Assembly: GCA_001606155.1 (NCBI GenBank)
Contig: LODT01000037.1
Coordinates: forward strand, 1,922,001 to 1,986,000
DNA from: Tieghemostelium lacteum
Lineage: Eukaryota; Evosea; Eumycetozoa; Dictyosteliales; Raperosteliaceae
Length of the DNA: 64,000 bases
Reading direction: 5' to 3'
Shown here: positions 28,826-52,990 of the stretch, in pieces
Numbering within the stretch: position 1 is the first letter of the stretch
Layout of the letters: each line of letters starts with the position of its first letter
The notes under the pieces: model-generated
What the model was told of the DNA's origin: nothing
What the model saw: only the letters and a program-made list of their open reading frames with translations
Database searches by the model: none
Program-made: the position numbers and the translations under genes

Positions 28826-30744
28826 TTAATTTTTGGTAGAAGATGTTCCATCAACAAAACTCATTAATTTTCTATAGATTTTAGCAATGGGACGATCAGA
28901 GACAAATTCTTGACCATTAAAAGTATCTTTAAGTCTTCTAATGAGAATATTAATCATGGATCCAAAAAATAAGGCAAATACTGTACTGGTCAATGTAATT
29001 ACATTATACAACATGCTGAAATCTGGAGTTGGAAGTGTTATAAGTAGACCTTCAGTATAGATTCTGACCGGAATGGTGGTATTATCTCTCGAGGACTTTT
29101 TAGTGTACAACAATGGTGACCATTCCAAATCTATAGATTCACCGTGTAGTGTTGGTATGGATTCTGGTTGAATATGACATGTTACAACACCAGAACCTAA
29201 ATCAAAACCTCTGTTGGCATCAGGAGGATGTTCGGTATAATGTAAAAACACTTTATCAAAATCAATAGACATGGAGGCAACAGAGTTTGGTGGAAGTTCA
29301 AATGAGAGTTCAAGTGTCGATGGTGATGATCTAGTCTCAGCTGGCATTATATAGTGGTAGGATAGATCACGGTCAGTGTAAATCTTGTCATTAATCATAA
29401 AACTAAAAGTATGGAAATAGATTCGCAAGTACCATGGTATTGCTTGATAGTAGGTAATGTTAATTGCCGAATGATGGTAATTGAATATTTGAATTGCTAG
29501 ACCACCTCTTTCCTGTCCGTATCCAGTTAGATGACTGTGAGCAACTACTGGTGCATTTATAGATCCCAATGTGGGAGATAATGGGTTTTTCAACCAATTG
29601 ATATTTAATTTCAATGAATTGGATTTTGAGTAATTTTTTAGATTAAACACTGTGAATTGTTTGTTGGCAGTTGGACTATATGACGCTGGTATAAGTGAAA
29701 TTTGGTATTGGTCCATGGATTTAGTTGGTATATAGATTCTAGACTCTGAAGCTAAAGGACACGAATACAACCCAGTTCCACTTCCAGATGATGTTATTTT
29801 TCCAAATAACTGATCGATATTTAAGTCAATTCTTCCAGTTTCTTTATTGGTAAATGAAGATACATCATTTACAACAGTTAATGACTGAATAATCTCCATT
29901 GAAGGTGCTAGACAATCATGACTAGTGGGTTTACATATCTTTCTGATATTAATAGTCATAGAGTGATAGTGTACATCATAGAGTTTTAAAGGGTTTAGTA
30001 ATTTACCAATACCTGATTGTTCTCTACATGGTAGTAACTTTATCCAAGGTGTTAGATTCTCAGTACAAACTGATTCTCTAGGTAATATACCATATCTTAA
30101 TTGTAATGCTGTAGTTGTATTATCAGCTCTATTAAATATACCAGGTGTTATAGATTCATCGTCATTATAGTAAATATTGCTTTTACCATCTGGTCTAAAT
30201 GATCTGTTTGGTGATGAGGTGTGATGTGTAACCTGATGTAAAAACTGCATACTAGCACAAAAGAAACCACTTAGAGAATGTGTAAGTTCTCTCCATTGTG
30301 CATCAATATCTTTTCCAGGTAGAGGTTTCAACCAAGCTACCAATTCTACACCAACAGGAGATGCCCTAACTGGGTATCCCCACTCTGCATAATTCCAACG
30401 TCCCTGTGTAAATACTAACTCTAATTCCTCAATACCAACTCTATTAATCAAATCACCAATTGATCTAGGAAATAAATCATAATGTTGAACTAGCCAAATA
30501 TATTAATATTTGAGTTCCTAAAGGATCGTTTTCTCTCTTTTATTTACATACAAGTTGATTGATCAAAGAAATTTGATTTCCATTCAGTTGTAAATTGAAC
30601 ATGTGTCATTAATTTACCTTTTGGTAAAGGTTTAAGTATCATTTCCTCATAAAAGGATTGTGATTCATTAAATTTTATATGATTACTTGTTGAAAACACT
30701 ACATTTATAAAAACAAAATAAATAGCTATTTCAATCCATTTCAT
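28826..30744 (-). CDS. pigT: GPI transamidase subunit PIG-T (Gpi16), 618 aa, two exons
   Basis: Exon 1 is 30744-30552 (donor GTATGT), the intron 30551-30490 (...GGCTAG) and exon 2 30489-28826; the junction reads QST-FQHYDLFPRSIGDLI. A signal peptide (about 1-19) is followed by the typical PIG-T start (ILKPLPKGKLMTHVQF). Next come HYDLFPRSIG and ELELVFTQGRW...WGYP, a region that is nearly diagnostic of the family. The long lumenal domain has N-glycosylation sites, and one TM helix near residues 555-590 precedes a short basic cytosolic tail. PIG-T bridges the catalytic PIG-K and the other subunits of the ER complex that attaches GPI anchors. Length is close to the family norm (about 570-640). 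Confidence 0.95.
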
Positions 30745-31232: not shown

Positions 31233-34200
31233 ATGTCAGAGACACCATTAATTATCTTATTATTAAAATACTTTTTTAAATTGATTGGGTATATATGCTC
31301 CATTGGTGCATTACCTATCACTTTATACTCACTATTGGTTTCGGTAAGTGAAGAGAATGGGGCTAAACTAGGCCCCTTACAGTTTTTGGGTACAGATTGT
31401 TAACATTTAGATTTTATAAAATGATCATATAGGCAATAGTAAATACAAAAGCAGATAGCCCGTCTAAACATTTTTTGATATTCATACCTAGAATATTAAT
31501 AGTATTACCATTTTGGGCATCATTCTTTTTACTTTCGTATTTGTATGGATGGTTGATTACAAAGGCAATTGATGATCCTAAAGTATGGGTACCTTGGGTT
31601 ATAGCATTGGGTGCACTATTTGTAATATGTATTGGTACTTGGTTTACAAGATATATGAGTTTTCTAAAGAAATCAATGCCTGAACTAAAAGTTGGAGATT
31701 ATTTTAAATCTCTATTAGAAGCAATTATTGATATTGGTGCTGTATTTGCATTGGCATTATCTATTGCATCTGTTATTAGAATACCATTCATATTAATGAT
31801 GATTGGTAACAATGATAAACATAAATATCGTACACAATTCTATTTACATTTACTAATGGCATTTGTAGATATACTCTGTCTGCCATTACTTCTTATTCAA
31901 TTTATAACAATTCTTAGAATACCAGATCTATTCCATTTCATTAATAAGGTATGTTTTTTGTTCTAATATCACCACCGGTTTTATACTAACATCACCACCA
32001 CCACATACTTTTAATATTAAATTTAGAAAAACTTTAATGATTCATATCATCTAAGTTTTATGATTTCAATTAGAGGTAGAATTATTGGAAACTTTTGTAT
32101 ATTGTTGATGGAAATTGGTATAATGTTATTTACATGGTTATTCTTGTTGGCACCATGGAGAATACCAACAGCTTATAGAAAATGTCAGAAAGTTGGTAAC
32201 AATCAATTTGATAATTTTGTTGAAATATTCCTTCAGGAATGTTTGTGTATAATGGATTTGGGTTGTATTTTGGTAGCTGTAATTCCATGTGCTTCTATAT
32301 ACCGTGGTGTAATTTTGATTAAAAAGATCAAAAATGACACTAATGGAGGTGACAGAAGAATAGAGGTATTCATTCAACTTGGCCAATTACTTTGGGATAT
32401 TCTTTCAGTTATACTCTTTTTATGGTTACTAGTTACATTCTATAGATTACCAGTACTTTGGAGAAAGAGAAACAATCGTGATGATATCAGAGTTGTTATT
32501 GGTAGTCAATTTATAGAGTTACTATTTGATATTCCACACATACTAATGTTTGGTGTCGTTGTAATTCTGGTTTGGAGAGCTGCTTTTATCATTAGAGATG
32601 TCATCAAATCTGATGAAAAGAGAAAATGTGTTAGACATCACTTTAAATATCTATTTATTGATATTCTAGACAGTCCATTCATTCTGGCATCTTTGATTAT
32701 TCTCCTAACTCTATGGAGATCTTATCTATTTGTTTGTGGATTCATTACACTAAAAAAGAGATCTGAACAAAGAAAATATGTATTCAATCAATTCATTGCA
32801 TGGTTACTTGATATTCCTTCTGCAATTGGATTGGTGTTAATCACTTTAACTGTTTACAGAGCTCCAGAGACTTATAGACAACTGAAAGAGTATTATGATA
32901 TATGGTGTGAAGAAACTCCAAATTATGGTAAACAACAACAACAACCACCACCACCACCTGTAAATCAAGATGATGATAATCCACTTCCAAATCAAGGTAA
33001 AAGAACAAACCAAAGATCATGGAGATATATTATTGCAAAGAATTTCTTCTTGATTCTTATTGATATCCCATTCCCACTATTGTTGATATTGACACTTTGG
33101 AGACTACCAATTCTCATTGGAAGATTAAGAGAAATTACTGATCCATCTAGACAATATGTTCAAAGACGTTTACTCATTTTAAGATATCTTTATTACTGTC
33201 TATTAGATATCCTTTGTGCTCCTATTGTAATTCTATGTTTTGTAACCATTTGGAGAGTACCAACATTTATCAATATCGTAAAGAACTACAAAAGAGGTGA
33301 TAATGAACATAAAGAAATTGGACATTTGTTCATCAAGATGATTGTTGATGTACCATTTGTATTATTTGGTGCATTTACTCTAATTGTTCCATGGAGAGGT
33401 CCATTCCTTATTAAAACAATCTACAAGAAATCCAAATCAGATAAAGAATCTAGAGAATTTGCACTCATTTACTTTGGAGCTTGTCTGGTTGATATCTGGA
33501 ATGGTATTGTGCTTGTTCTCATTGCTGCTATTGGAGCTTGGAGATTTCCAAAAGTCAAAGAAATGTACCTATATTTCAAAAAACAAAATGAAACAGCTCC
33601 ATGGGTACACTCCATTTCTTTGACCAAAGCTATAAACTTTGGTTTCGTATTTGTATTAGTTGACTATCTATCAGCTATACAGTTACTCTATATTACCATC
33701 TTTATTAAACAGTTACCAAGTTGTATTAAATCTGCAAGAGAGATAATGAAGAATCCAGATTTCAAGATTGATGATCTTCGTCCAGTACTCATTCACTATA
33801 CTCTAGAGACTATGCATGATGTTCCACATATTCCATTGATTCCATTTAAACTTGCTGGATGTATATTCTTACCAGTTCACTTGTTCATGAAAAAACGTGT
33901 TACTGAATCCCTTGCTAAATTCCCTCTACAAGAACTCCACATTCTCTCTGCTAAATACCTCAATTACTATGGTATGGATAAACTATTCCTGGTCAACTCC
34001 GTTGCCAGTTTTATTGTAATTCCAAATGAACTTGGTATGCTTGTAGCACTAGTTAACAGTATCTATATATTCATCATCACACTTGGATCACCACTATGGA
34101 ACAAACAAAGATTAGCAGCAGGTTGGAACAGATTAGGTGATGCCACTGGAATTCTATCCATTCTAGAAATTATAATTCTAGCTGGTCAATCCATTACATT

Positions 34201-35604
34201 CCCATTATTCATTGCATTACAAGGTTTCATTCTATTACTACCAGTTATTGTCTCTTTAGGTATGTACCAGTTACCATCCTCCCCAGGTTTCTCTGAATTT
34301 TGGAAATTACTTTTCACCTCCAGAGAATTTTGGAGAAATGCACATAGATTCAATGCAGGTATATGGTTCCTACAAGTATTCTGGTTAGTTGTATGTCTTG
34401 CAACTTGGAATCATTTAGTTATTTTCTCACGTAAACACTTCCCATTATTCTCTCCATTGAGATCTTACTATTGGGTTGTAAAGAAGGTCTTTGCTGGAAG
34501 AATTTGGGGTTTCTATAAACTGATTCTTGCAAAATCCACTCAAATTTGTTACCGTCTAAGAAAAGCTTGTTTCATTGGTGAGTTACTCATGTTCCCTGTA
34601 TTTTTAGCTTGGAGTTGTTGGCCACTAGTCATTCCAATTGCCACCAAGATTTACTATATTTTCATTCCATCTGGTATGGCTACACTTACATTAATGGTCT
34701 TTGCCTATCGTGTTATTAAAGCCAACTGGACAAGTAACCTTGCCAAAGCAGGTGGACAAATTAGTAATACTCCAGATCTCAAACTTAAAAAGATTGTTTT
34801 ACAAACTCCAGAAGATGGTGGTTTGGTATTCAATATTGAAGGTGTATTCCCACAACAAACTGCCTATAGAGAAGTACGTCTTACTTTGGATTCTGAACCA
34901 CTTTGGGATGCCATTAGATCAGCTATTGGATCTTCTAAAGTCTCTGCAGGTCTCTTCTTAGTTGGTTATCCAATTGCCTTGACACCAATGTTCATGAATC
35001 TCGAAGAGGTTTCACCAAAACTCGGTAATGTTGAATTCTCTATAAAGATTGGTATGCCAGGATCAAAATTCCATCTCAAAAAGAAAGTTCTAATCAAATT
35101 TGTTAGAATGATTGTTCAAGTTGCAGACCCAACATTTGACTTTGTCTTAGAACATGGTAAAAAAGATTTTGGATGGAAGAAGTTGGGTATTGTAACTAGA
35201 TTCACTGCCAAACTCTCACAGATTTTGGATCTACCTCCAGGTGGAATTCTATACAATGATGATGAATTTGAGAATTATATAGTACCCAAAGCACCAGAGC
35301 CTCCAAAGGCAGGATGGAAGAAACAAGCTGGTAACAATAGAGTCAATTTCCATCATGATAATAATGATCTTCATGAAATTACACCAAAAAATATTAGAAA
35401 TTCCATTGGAGAATATCAAGACTATGTTTATAATCCAAAAGATTTTGAATCGGATAGTGATAGTGAAAGTGTAAAAGATAATGGTGAATTGACACAATCT
35501 CCACCTCCACCACCTCCACCACCTTTACCTCCAGTACATAAACAAAATCAACCTGTAACACCACCAGTTAATGATATCACTTCTCTACCTCCACCTCCAC
35601 CTCC

Positions 35605-35644
<40 letters not shown>

Positions 35645-35755
35645 CTACAACAACAAGATCACAGCAATATACATGTATTTTATGATGAAGAAACTGGTCA
35701 AGAATTAGTTTTGGATGATTTTGTCGATGAAAAAGATAAAAGTAATATAGTCTAA
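31233..35755 (+). CDS. Giant multipass membrane protein with about 13 tandem TM modules, 1451 aa, three exons
   Basis: Exons are 31233-31343 (donor GTAAGT), 31433-31948 (donor GTATGT) and 32027-35755, all phase 0. From about residue 100 to about 690 the sequence repeats a unit of roughly 45 residues: (L/V)-D-I, a hydrophobic run of 15-18, then (W/Y)R-x-P, then a charged loop. Examples are LLDIPSAIGLVLITLTVYRA, LLDILCAPIVILCFVTIWRV and IVDVPFVLFGAFTLIVPWRG. More hydrophobic helices follow to about 1110. A soluble domain (about 1120-1290, LKKIVLQTPEDGGLVFNIEG...) and a disordered acidic, Pro-rich and Gln-rich tail complete the protein. I do not recognise the family; the repetition suggests internal duplication of one helical unit. 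No transporter motif is evident. Function unknown. Confidence 0.9.
35608..35655 (+). repeat. CAA triplet run (poly-Gln) in tail of TM-repeat protein
   Basis: In-frame CAA repeats, interrupted once by CTA, after a CCACCTCCA Pro run. The tract is in the predicted cytosolic tail. Confidence 0.9.
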
Positions 35756-48230: not shown

Positions 48231-48353
48231 ATGGAATATCAATTATATAAAATTGTATTTGGAAATGCAGTAATTTTTAAAAAGATTATCAGTTTTATAA
48301 AGATTAATAATAGAGTTTCTAAAAAGTATCATCAAATTAATAATGGAAATTAA
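48231..48353 (+). other. Short upstream frame conserved with the N-terminus of the second ankyrin gene
   Basis: ATG at 48231 opens a 40-codon frame reading MEYQLYKIVFGNAVIFKKII and ending in TAA at 48351-48353. It aligns with the N-terminus of the downstream paralogue (YQLYKLIFGNCYLYKKVFSY), but it is one base out of frame with the main ankyrin frame starting at 48343. The stretch matching the paralogue's VHWICTNGYFSLLHEKLK is absent. It is either an upstream frame left by a small deletion in this host gene or a 5' coding piece made useless. Confidence 0.6.
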
Positions 48354-50472
48354 AGAACACGTTTATCATTGGTCACCAACATCTATTAATAATATATGTG
48401 AAAGTGGTCAATTAAAGTTACTTGAATATGCCAATGAAATATTACCAGATTGCTATTTCGTAAATACCAGTACTGATTGTGCTGCAACTAATGGGCATTT
48501 AGATATTCTAAAATGGTTATTTAAACATAAACCTGATATAGGATGTACAAATGCTGCAATGGATCATGCTGCTGCAAATGGTCATTTTGAAGTTGTAAAA
48601 TATCTTCATGTAAATAGAAAAGAAGGTTGTACAAACTATGCAATGGATCATGCTGCTGCAAATGGTCATTTGGAAATTATTAAATATCTTCATGAGAATA
48701 GAGATGAAGGTTGTACATGGTATGCGATTGAATCGGCAGCATTATTGAAAGATCATAAACTATCAGTTGATATCTTTAAATTTCTAATTGAACACAAAAG
48801 AATTGAAGAAATTTCATTGAAAACAATTGGAAATCTAGGTTTATCAGGAAATATTCAATTATTTGAATATCTCTACAGAGAAAAGAAATTAATTTCTAAT
48901 ATTCATTTGGGAACATTGAATAGCTGTTGTTTGAATGGAAATTCAGAATTTCTTGACCATTTACTATCAAATGAAACTTTAGATTTTAGTTTTCTGAACA
49001 CCAAAGAAAATTTTGATGATTTAGAAAATCAAAATAACAAGAAATTACTATCTATTAGTGCTTGTAAAAGTGGTCATGTAAATGTCTTAAAAGTTATTCA
49101 TAAGCACAATATGATCATAGGTGATTATTTGTTAGATACTGTAAAAGATGGTCAATTAGATTGTGTTAAATGGCTCTTTGAAAATGGTTTCAATATCCAC
49201 TCTACACATGCTATTAATAATTGTCAATCTTTAGAATCTGTAAAGTATTTCCATGAAATCACTCCATTCAAATGTGATAAAAATTTAGCAGATCACACGG
49301 CTAATAACCCTGATATACTTGAATTTATCTTTGAAAATGATAAACCTTGTTCTACTGATTGTGCAAAGAATGCTTGTAAAATTGGTAATTTAGATAGTAT
49401 TAAACTAATACACCGACATTATCCACTGTCTATTGATATTGTCAGTTGTTATAGTAATGCAGCCATCAATGGTCATTTACATATTCTTAAATATCTAGAA
49501 TCACAGGGATATAAAACCTCACTCTCTATAGATTTGCTTAAAAAAGTAGTAGAATCAGGACATTTCGAAATTTTAAAATATTGGGAAAAAACAGATTTGA
49601 TTGGTAGTAATGAACTTCCTCAAATTGCAAGTTTATCACTACAATACGGCCAATTGGAAATCTATGAATACTTTAAAGATTATGAAACAGATGACATTAA
49701 AAAGAAATTTAATAGCATGTTAAAATCTATTCTAACCAATGATATGGAGTTATTTAATATATTTGATTTGAATGAATTCGTATCGCTTGGTTATCCACTA
49801 CACAGGATGTTCTATGATATTCCACCTAATATTACAGAAAAATTGGTAAAAACCTTTGGAATTGAGATATTTAAATTAGACTTCATGTTAAATTGTGAAT
49901 ATAGACCCCATGATAGTATAAAGTATATTCTATCATTGACCAAAAGGGACAATCTTCCAATATGGTATACTAGTTGTTGTAAAAGAGGTCATGTTCATCT
50001 TATGGATTATATATCAACTTTATATCCAGATATCCTAGATACGGTAATGTTTTCAAATTTAATTATTCTTTCTATTACCAATGGACTAGTAGATTGTTAT
50101 GATTATTTGGTTAAAAAATATAAAGGAAATACGGATACTTTACCTAAACAAATTAGCATTGTTAAAATTTACCAATTAAATTTTTTCACAATGATACAAA
50201 GTATAACTAAACTATTTCCTTCCAGTAATTTTCTTTCGGAATCCCATACATACATTGCATATGAAAACTATAGACTCACTATACTTAAATATCTATACTA
50301 TAGTTGTAACTTTCAACTAAACCCTTCAGAAATAATGACTCAACAAATTCTAAATCTACCAACAAAACAAAAAACAATTGAAAAAATCCAAAATGAAGCC
50401 ATCTCACATCTAAACTCCTACCGAAGTTATGATAATTTTGATTTTTTAGGATTTTATTTTTCTTTTTTTTGA
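48343..50472 (+). CDS. Dictyostelid ankyrin-repeat protein, copy 1, 709 aa
   Basis: Starts at the ATG at 48343, giving a protein that begins inside the family's N-terminal region (HVYHWSPTSINNI). Degenerate ankyrin repeats of the amoeba type follow: ATNGHLDILKWLFKHKPD, AAANGHFEVVKYLHVNRKEG, AAANGHLEIIKYLHENRDEG, and many weaker ones to about residue 600 (GQLDCVKWLFENGF, GHLHILKYLESQGY, GHFEILKYWEK). No catalytic or membrane segment is seen. Such proteins number in the dozens or hundreds in some dictyostelids and their roles are unknown. A 486-bp segment (48528-49013) is almost identical to the neighbour gene, while flanking parts are only about half identical in protein. The true 5' end may be affected by the frame change described at 48231. 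Confidence 0.8.
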   Translation: MEIKEHVYHWSPTSINNICESGQLKLLEYANEILPDCYFVNTSTDCAATNGHLDILKWLFKHKPDIGCTNAAMDHAAANGHFEVVKYLHVNRKEGCTNYAMDHAAANGHLEIIKYLHENRDEGCTWYAIESAALLKDHKLSVDIFKFLIEHKRIEEISLKTIGNLGLSGNIQLFEYLYREKKLISNIHLGTLNSCCLNGNSEFLDHLLSNETLDFSFLNTKENFDDLENQNNKKLLSISACKSGHVNVLKVIHKHNMIIGDYLLDTVKDGQLDCVKWLFENGFNIHSTHAINNCQSLESVKYFHEITPFKCDKNLADHTANNPDILEFIFENDKPCSTDCAKNACKIGNLDSIKLIHRHYPLSIDIVSCYSNAAINGHLHILKYLESQGYKTSLSIDLLKKVVESGHFEILKYWEKTDLIGSNELPQIASLSLQYGQLEIYEYFKDYETDDIKKKFNSMLKSILTNDMELFNIFDLNEFVSLGYPLHRMFYDIPPNITEKLVKTFGIEIFKLDFMLNCEYRPHDSIKYILSLTKRDNLPIWYTSCCKRGHVHLMDYISTLYPDILDTVMFSNLIILSITNGLVDCYDYLVKKYKGNTDTLPKQISIVKIYQLNFFTMIQSITKLFPSSNFLSESHTYIAYENYRLTILKYLYYSCNFQLNPSEIMTQQILNLPTKQKTIEKIQNEAISHLNSYRSYDNFDFLGFYFSFF
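48528..49013 (+). repeat. Near-identical tract shared with 50947-51432 (copy A)
   Basis: 486 bp with no indels and about ten mismatches by eye (about 98%) against 50947-51432; similarity falls sharply at both borders. It codes four to five ankyrin-type units in the same frame in both genes. This is the signature of a gene-conversion tract. Confidence 0.9.
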
Positions 50473-50602: not shown

Positions 50603-52990
50603 ATGAAGGATATATACCAACTGTATAAATTAATTTTTGGTAATTGTTATCTTTATAAAAAAGTATTTTCATATATTAAGGGAACAGGAAAGAAGTATGA
50701 TAAGATCACACATGTACATTGGATTTGCACAAATGGCTATTTCTCATTATTACATGAAAAGCTAAAGAGAAATGAAAAACTATATCATTGGTCTCCACAT
50801 TGTATAGATTTGATATCTACATCGAATAATTTAAATCTATTGATTGATATCAGTAAAATTCTACCAGATTACTATTTCGGTTGTAATAATATGGTTAAAT
50901 CAGCAACTAATGGCCACTTGGGTATTCTCATATGGTTACATGAAAATAAACCTGATATAGGATGTACAAATGCTGCAATGGATCATGCTGCTGCAAATGG
51001 TCATTTTGAAGTTGTAAAATATCTTCATGTAAATAGAAAAGAAGGTTGTACAAACTATGCAATGGATCATGCTGCTGCAAATGGTCATTTGGAAATTATT
51101 AAATATCTTCATGAGAATAGAGATGAAGGTTGTACATCTATTGCAATTGAATCAGCAGCATTATTGAAAGATCATAAACTATCAGTTGATATCTTTAAAT
51201 TTCTGATTGAACACAAAAGAATTGAAGAAATTTCATTGAAAACAATTGGAAATCTAGGTTTATCAGGAAATATTCAATTATTTGAATATCTCTACAGAGA
51301 AAAGAAATTAATTTCTAATATTCATTTGGGAACATTGAATAACTGTTGTTTGAATGGAAATTCAGAATTTCTTGACCATTTACTATCAAATGAAACTTTA
51401 GATTTTAGTTTTCTGGATACCAAAGAAAATTTATCACTTTTGGCAACAATAGCATGTCAAAATGCTCACTTGAATATCTTAGAGGTATTAGATAAACATG
51501 GTAAAATACCAAATATTTATCTATTAGATATTGTAAAAAATAGTCAATATGATATTGTTAGGTGGCTTTTTGAAAAGGGTTATAAGGAACACTCTAAATA
51601 TGCAATGGATAATTGTAGATCATTAGAATCTGTAAAATATTTCCATGAAAACTCTAAAGTTGGTTGCACTAAAAAATTGGCTGATTGTAATTTTAATAAT
51701 CCAGAGATTCTCAGTTTTCTCTTTGATAACCGTGTAGAAGGTTGTAGCACCCAATGTTTTAGAAATGCTTGTGAGTATGGGTGTTTAGAAAGTGTACATC
51801 TAATAGCATCTAAATATCCAAGTGCAATATCCTATAAAAAGTATATGGAATCTGTAAAGAATGGTCATTTGGATATTGCAAAATATCTTGAAAAGAACAA
51901 GCAGGTTAGGTTTTCACAAATAATATCTAATCTCTATGAAATGCTATGGTCAAGAAGAGATGAAGCCATTCGATATTTCTTTGATAACAATGAGGAACTG
52001 GTAAATCAAATTCGATCACATAGAAATGATTATACAACATTGTTAAGGATTTGTATAAAAAATTATATGGTATCAACTTGTGATTATTTAATCAATAAGA
52101 TTGAAGTTAATAATTGCATCTATGGTGAGACCATAAAATCACTCTATATGGAAGACATTGATAATCTCGATCAACTATTAGATGAATTTAATATGCAGTT
52201 GGGAGATCAACTTCCAGATCTATTCTATAAGTCATTGGAAGTTGGTAACATTGAAATTGTAAAGATTCTCATTGGCAAGTTAAAATCAACTGGTAAAATT
52301 AAATCAATTCATCCTATTGCTACTCTCATTGAAATGTGTTTAACAACCTACAATAATGGTGATATTGTTAAACTAATTATTCAAGAAGGTGCATACAAAG
52401 GTTTGCTATTAGTGAACCCAACCTTTTTAAAATTCTGTGAATCTGATGCCTTTCATTTAGCACAATATCTACTAGAGTCTTCAGAAATACACCACCAACC
52501 AACTACCATTGAACATAGTACTTTAATGAGCCTTTTTGAAAGATCATTTAATTATGGTTCTATGCCGCTATTAAATTATCTGATAAAGTACTGCAAATTT
52601 CAACCTACAGAAAAAAATGTCAGTGTATTAACTTGGAAATATCATATACTAAGTTCAAATTGTCTTAGCATGTTCCAATTGGATTCTATTCCATGGAAAT
52701 CTGTAAAATCTATTGCTAGAACAATAACTACCTGTACAGAGCTTAAAACTATTGAAAAATTCATCACTAATTTATGTGCAATAGATAATGTATTTGTAAA
52801 AGCCTCTACACCCAAACCAAATAATTACCTCACTTATTTAGCATGGGATGATGATATGGATATAAAAGAAATTATTCAACGTGATAAAAATGATATTGAT
52901 GATGTATTAGATTACTTAACGGATGACTCTTTAAGTAGTCTTGAAGATGATGAAGAAAATAAATATTTTTTTGCTGATGATTATGAATAA
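50603..52990 (+). CDS. Dictyostelid ankyrin-repeat protein, copy 2, 795 aa
   Basis: The first ATG in the frame is 50603; the frame is open further upstream but only through AT-rich leader without an ATG. The protein begins MKDIYQLYKLIFGNCYLYKK, then HVHWICTNGYFSLLHEKLKR and KLYHWSPHCIDLI, followed by ankyrin-type repeats (ATNGHLGILIWLHENKPD, AAANGHFEVVKYLHVNRKEG, NAHLNILEVLDKHGK, NSQYDIVRWLFEKGY, KNGHLDIAKYLEKNK, VGNIEIVKILIGKLK). The C-terminus is acidic (DDVLDYLTDDSLSSLEDDEE). It is intact where copy 1 is not, so it looks like the better-preserved member of the tandem pair. It converges on the RasGEF gene with about 96 bp between stops. Function unknown. Confidence 0.87.
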   Translation: MKDIYQLYKLIFGNCYLYKKVFSYIKGTGKKYDKITHVHWICTNGYFSLLHEKLKRNEKLYHWSPHCIDLISTSNNLNLLIDISKILPDYYFGCNNMVKSATNGHLGILIWLHENKPDIGCTNAAMDHAAANGHFEVVKYLHVNRKEGCTNYAMDHAAANGHLEIIKYLHENRDEGCTSIAIESAALLKDHKLSVDIFKFLIEHKRIEEISLKTIGNLGLSGNIQLFEYLYREKKLISNIHLGTLNNCCLNGNSEFLDHLLSNETLDFSFLDTKENLSLLATIACQNAHLNILEVLDKHGKIPNIYLLDIVKNSQYDIVRWLFEKGYKEHSKYAMDNCRSLESVKYFHENSKVGCTKKLADCNFNNPEILSFLFDNRVEGCSTQCFRNACEYGCLESVHLIASKYPSAISYKKYMESVKNGHLDIAKYLEKNKQVRFSQIISNLYEMLWSRRDEAIRYFFDNNEELVNQIRSHRNDYTTLLRICIKNYMVSTCDYLINKIEVNNCIYGETIKSLYMEDIDNLDQLLDEFNMQLGDQLPDLFYKSLEVGNIEIVKILIGKLKSTGKIKSIHPIATLIEMCLTTYNNGDIVKLIIQEGAYKGLLLVNPTFLKFCESDAFHLAQYLLESSEIHHQPTTIEHSTLMSLFERSFNYGSMPLLNYLIKYCKFQPTEKNVSVLTWKYHILSSNCLSMFQLDSIPWKSVKSIARTITTCTELKTIEKFITNLCAIDNVFVKASTPKPNNYLTYLAWDDDMDIKEIIQRDKNDIDDVLDYLTDDSLSSLEDDEENKYFFADDYE
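50947..51432 (+). repeat. Near-identical tract shared with 48528-49013 (copy B)
   Basis: Partner of the tract in ankyrin copy 1: same length, same frame. Five of the roughly ten differences cluster within eight bases (around 51138-51146). Confidence 0.9.

Follow-up and report, generated by a model that had tools for sequence, protein, structure and literature searches.

Gene structure and parts of the encoded protein

We analysed a window of 64,000 nucleotides of Tieghemostelium lacteum (contig C31, positions 1922001-1986000), from a genome of 23,333,832 bases in 43 contigs (30.5% G+C); nucleotide positions below are those of the window. At 31233..35755, on the + strand, lies a gene for a protein of 1451 residues, with three exons (31233-31343, 31433-31948 and 32027-35755) that we infer from the open frames and the splice sites. 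The codon usage of the gene correlates with that of its pooled neighbours with r 0.97, as compared to 0.78 and 0.83 for the two shifted frames. The neighbours include a gene on the - strand at 28826-30451, the product of which presumably resembles a PIG-T-type GPI transamidase subunit, and two adjacent genes on the + strand, at 48343-50472 and 50603-52990, which we take to code for ankyrin-like proteins. The translations of these two genes share long near-identical stretches, as in a recent tandem duplication.

The protein begins with a hydrophobic region (residues 1-116; 31233..31669, on the + strand as are all the features that follow), which holds the intron at 31344-31432 and no detectable copy of the repeat described below. 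Eight units of that repeat come next: u1 (D137, R153; 31670..31819), u2 (D183, R199; 31808..31948, its final 3 residues lying past the intron), u3 (E238, R254; 32051..32200), u4 (D286, R302; 32195..32344), u5 (D333, R349; 32336..32485), u6 (D377, R393; 32468..32617), u7 (D421/D424, R440; 32600..32749) and u8 (D471, R487; 32750..32899). A linker rich in glutamine, proline and aspartate (residues ~504-534; 32909..33001) is followed by u9 (D555, R568; 33002..33151), which is shorter by 3 residues, u10 (D603, R619; 33146..33295), u11 (D650, R666; 33287..33436) and u12 (D698, R715; 33431..33580). Two probable decayed units, u13 (D755) and u14 (D807), in which the arginine is out of place, occupy 33602..33907. 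The remainder of the protein comprises a C-terminal hydrophobic region (residues 846-1110; 33935..34729), recognised by hydropathy and lacking the repeat in shuffle tests, a mostly hydrophilic C-terminal domain (residues 1111-1290; 34730..35269) and an acidic tail rich in proline and glutamine (residues 1291-1451; 35270..35752). By eye the C-terminal domain looks strand-rich; it found no family match in the libraries searched and may offer the best handle on function. Low-complexity tracts rich in glutamine and proline are seen between u8 and u9 (32909-33001) and in part of the C-terminal tail (~35500-35658).

A module of about 47 residues recurs at least twelve times

In this protein a module of about 47 residues is repeated in tandem at least 12 times. 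Each copy is a hydrophobic segment that has an aspartate or glutamate close to where it starts and that ends on an arginine, usually within a W/Y-R-x-P motif. For comparison, 14 candidate units were aligned, hand-anchored on the acidic residue (position 0). Both the acid, mostly in a D-I pair, and the terminal arginine are present in 12/12 of u1-u12, as the initial annotation had proposed for every unit. The arginine is found exactly at +16 from the acid in 9/12 units, and the core between the two residues consists of exactly 15 uncharged residues, also in 9/12. Proline or glycine occupies +2 in 8/12 units, with u7 anchored on D424. Tryptophan or tyrosine precedes the terminal arginine in 10/12, and a proline stands two residues past it in 9/12. 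Upstream of the acid, arginine is found at -13 in 9/12 of u1-u12, isoleucine at -10 in 6/12, and phenylalanine or leucine at -6 in 11/12. Unit u7 carries two aspartates, D421 and D424, in the motif D-I-L-D-S-P (32660-32671); when counted from D424 the 16-residue spacing is restored, as though a duplication or shift of the start motif had taken place.

The units are diverged, with a mean pairwise identity of 23% (range 11-38%) and no block or parity pattern, and the remnant of the repeat at the DNA level is one 30-base family with three copies. A superperiod, including one of two units, was looked for by lag (smallest one-sided p 0.12) and by parity, and none was found; nor did odd units differ from even ones. 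That at least 12 units keep an acid and an arginine at this degree of identity points either to a module that inserts regardless of orientation or to a membrane protein made of many hairpins.

Comparison of the repeat with shuffled sequences

Hydrophobic segments align readily with each other. An ordinary polytopic protein with evenly spaced hydrophobic helices could thus mimic a repeat. Each unit was scored with a leave-one-out profile against 500 shuffles that preserved local hydropathy. Ten units (u1-u8, u10 and u11) scored above all 500 shuffles, and u9 and u12 above 498 (2/500 each). The decayed candidates failed this test, u13 being matched by 295/500 shuffles and u14 by 20/500, a failure that speaks for an ordinary polytopic protein. 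Because the anchors had been chosen by hand, an anchor-free comparison of the two parts of the array was added. When u1-8 was compared with u9-12 the score was 131, the best of 300 shuffles reaching 108. The u13-14 region, examined in the same way, was matched by 1/300 shuffles against u1-8 and by 15/300 against u9-12. As it resembles the first part of the array, and less clearly the second, this region likely holds two decayed copies, which we do not count as full members.

No repeat copy was detected by the anchor-free test in the N-terminus (256/300 shuffles as good), in the C-terminal hydrophobic region (296/300) or in the C-terminal domain (241/300), and an unrelated multi-TM protein did not match the array (266/300). 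The intended positive control, the two halves of a protein that we take to be cation-exchanger-like, was also negative (182/300), and the test therefore misses very old repeats. Together, the leave-one-out and anchor-free tests rule out chance similarity of hydrophobic helices for u1-u12; an ordinary polytopic protein, which we consider very improbable, is taken as refuted for these units. We conclude that the periodicity noted before is significant and that the repeat in u1-u12 is real and unusual.

Searches for related proteins

Exons 2 and 3 were compared with Pfam, and three parts of exon 3, which omit six bases and the tail, were compared with Pfam, NCBIfam and PHROGs; exon 1 (37 aa) was in no library scan. 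Exons 2 and 3 gave only sub-threshold Pfam matches (E up to 1), to Romo1 (E 0.018) and DUF5381 (E 0.43), and the exon-3 parts gave COX14 alone (E 0.23, at E up to 10). The same parts had no match in NCBIfam and a single sub-threshold one in PHROGs, phrog_15541 (E 0.095), on the C-terminal domain. These four matches, all below threshold, were taken as noise. No Pfam match at E up to 10 supports the idea that the C-terminal domain is LEA_2-like and binds lipids.

Among PDB sequences there were no matches to the exon-3 protein (E up to 1) or to the C-terminal domain (E up to 10). A profile of the 14 units gave 35 weak chain matches (E up to 10), of which 28 were to PsbK (best E 0.024) and 5 to integrin (best E 0.0076); others were the oxaloacetate decarboxylase gamma chain (E 1.1) and an antiporter G subunit (E 2.1). 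We judged these matches to be due to chance between generic helices; neither an array nor W-R-x-P was seen in the three alignments inspected.

We looked for a second genomic copy with three protein queries and found none among the best-scoring candidates, which corresponded to this gene and to two weak matches to its tail that probably stem from the low-complexity tracts. Peptide scans of viral and prokaryotic sequences, which reach close relatives only, returned 1, 21 and 600 pattern matches, none of which was confirmed. Motif scans at the DNA level gave 27 viral and 31 prokaryotic matches; these scans were partial, in that the arginine codon of the first module was AGN (viral) or CGN (prokaryotic), tryptophan was demanded before both arginines and, for the prokaryotic scan, D-I-P was additionally demanded in the second module. 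When open stretches of at least 60 residues in the six frames of all 58 loci were searched with the repeat profile, the best E values were 0.015 and 0.15, and the loci were read as chance matches, not as viral or prokaryotic relatives. In the literature on repeat membrane proteins of Dictyostelium and single-helix repeats, and in that on membrane solenoids and tandem hairpins, the protein was absent among the matches listed, as far as titles and the openings of abstracts go. With no match judged real, we judge that the protein, described from the outset as unrecognised, has no catalogued family among the Pfam, NCBIfam, PHROGs and PDB sequences searched. As the further collections covered were viral and prokaryotic, this does not make it an orphan.

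Segment length and loop charge

Tandem one-helix repeats are awkward for topology, because copies of one and the same sequence would need to enter the membrane in both orientations. Two lines of evidence bear on whether each unit crosses the membrane once, and they disagree. The first is length. The 12 hydrophobic stretches of the array are 17-27 residues long (mean 21.6), near the length of single TM segments and somewhat longer than the stretches of the MFS proteins of the same genome (81 stretches in nine frames; median 17, IQR 14-20). Each unit could instead be a re-entrant or short two-arm hairpin, the first arm extending from D-13 to D-1, the chain breaking at D-I-P/G and the second arm running to W-R-x-P, with all loops cytosolic; the protein would then carry 12 or more wedges that bend the membrane, an action ascribed to reticulon-type hairpins. 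Lengths near those of single TM segments speak against this arrangement. The stretches in the genome's own reticulon, in two frames, are of 13, 50, 16 and 12 residues, a spread into which the array stretches fall, and a comparison that is mixed and not clearly against hairpins.

The second line of evidence is charge. The loops after u1-u12 carry net charges of 0 to +4, with a mean of +2.5 for those that follow odd units and +2.2 for those that follow even ones, the 67-residue linker loop (net 0) being included. As a reference we used MFS proteins, taken to have 12 helices and the N-terminus inside. In the MFS proteins of this genome, outside loops have a mean of -0.04 (n 24) and inside loops of +1.06 (n 16), the reference being limited to four of nine frames, as five were dropped for lack of a 12-peak assignment, and the assignment of peaks being rough. 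Central loops and loops of more than 60 residues were dropped from this reference, and the array loops are longer than the MFS loops. An earlier reference with two usable frames had given -0.25 outside and +1.62 inside. Array loops of each parity differ from the outside loops (p about 0.001) and not significantly from the inside loops (p 0.11 and 0.19). As both parities are positive, the positive-inside rule would be broken for half of the loops if the helices alternate. Absence of odd/even alternation, with each parity unlike the outside loops, is what the hairpin arrangement would give. The initial annotation had described a repeat of one helix per unit; a repeat of one hydrophobic segment in ~47 residues stands, but a full crossing by every unit does not follow, since the loop charges oppose simple alternation.

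Two further features of the loops point in different directions. All three N-glycosylation sequons found in the array are in loops that follow even units, as chance alone would give in 1 of 4 cases; this placement weakly fits alternation. The Q/P-rich linker, however, comes after an even unit as well, which would put it on the sequon side if the helices alternate; this is odd for the lumenal side and argues against alternation. Thus, length is TM-like while loop charge is cytosol-like for both parities, and the charge fits hairpins better.

A possible arrangement of the array in the membrane

We tentatively rank first a model in which the array forms a row of membrane helices zipped together by pairs between the arginine of one unit and the aspartate of the next. 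In this model, the helix of each unit would begin at the acid (mostly D-I, with proline or glycine next in 8/12 units) and end at the arginine, usually in W/Y-R-x-P. On an ideal helix, 16 residues correspond by simple arithmetic to ~24 A along the axis and ~160 degrees around it, so that the two residues, at opposite ends, would face opposite neighbours. If successive helices are antiparallel, the arginine of unit i and the aspartate of unit i+1 would be in the same leaflet, so that an ion pair could form and the helices could be zipped in order. Whichever way each helix points, the outcome would be an open sheet or a solenoid, and such a zipper would account for one module having been copied in both orientations with both residues kept. 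The protein might then have a structural role, as a scaffold or fence within the membrane, and the C-terminal domain together with the acidic, P/Q-rich tail might be the end at which it docks.

The frame of acid and arginine in all 12 units and the uncharged 15-residue core in 9/12 support the row of helices. Glycine or proline at D+2 in 8/12 units fits a helix start, and the absence of a difference between odd and even units is what a single module that works in both orientations should show. Against this row stand the positive loops of both parities and the position of the linker on the sequon side. The re-entrant hairpins, which we hold to be possible and somewhat short of an even chance, are nearly tied with it, because they better explain the loop charges. 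The breaker at D+2 (8/12) also falls near the middle of the hydrophobic region, which in the mean profile extends from about -10 to +21. On the other hand, a hairpin would place an aspartate near its tip; the amphipathic character of its first arm shows in the mean profile, whereas per-unit tests of the hydrophobic moment are mostly not significant; and the protein has no reticulon match.

Alternatively, a lipid or an ion could move along a polar groove or ladder made by the acids and arginines, as in a transporter, a scramblase or a lipid bridge. The charged pair that all 12 units carry and the second, non-repeat hydrophobic region past the array would suit such a path. However, we found no transporter family above the cut-off in Pfam or NCBIfam and no two-unit superperiod, and in 9/12 units the charges flank the 15-residue uncharged core instead of being within it. 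We consider a transport path quite unlikely.

Returning to the row of helices, the module might more generally be a single helix independent of topology that offers an acidic 'socket' where it begins and an arginine 'plug' where it ends, an idea that we regard as rather doubtful. If it were true, each copy would lock to the next in any orientation and build an open-ended, membrane-embedded solenoid. Such a solenoid would be the membrane counterpart of soluble repeat scaffolds, from a module that could be copied any number of times.

Comparison with known systems

The reticulon family (PF02453) has long hydrophobic hairpin segments with all loops cytosolic. The array, too, has hydrophobic segments, its loops might all be on the cytosolic side, and a role in membrane shaping is conceivable; it differs in its 12 or more units with a conserved acid and arginine. 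PF02453 had no match in exons 2 and 3 (E up to 1) or in the three exon-3 parts (E up to 10), and a reticulon search of the genome gave a match on contig C30 alone, at a separate locus. An idealised, leucine-rich consensus scored 32.6 bits against Promethin / LDAF1 (PF16015; cut-off 27), the only family above its cut-off for that consensus among 15 listed. The real stretches (exon 2, exon 3 and the exon-3 parts) had no Promethin match, and we rejected this score as an artefact of composition. With PsbK and the integrin TM chains of the PDB, the feature shared in the three alignments inspected is a hydrophobic helix only.

No carrier family was above the cut-off (Pfam for exons 2 and 3; Pfam and NCBIfam for the exon-3 parts). 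MFS_1 (PF07690) had no match in the protein (exons 2 and 3, exon-3 parts) and is found elsewhere in the genome at no fewer than nine places (nine scored of 59 candidates). Internal duplication probably gave rise to MFS proteins and cation/proton exchangers, in which several helices are repeated as a block. Here, in contrast, one unit of ~47 residues is repeated at least 12 times.
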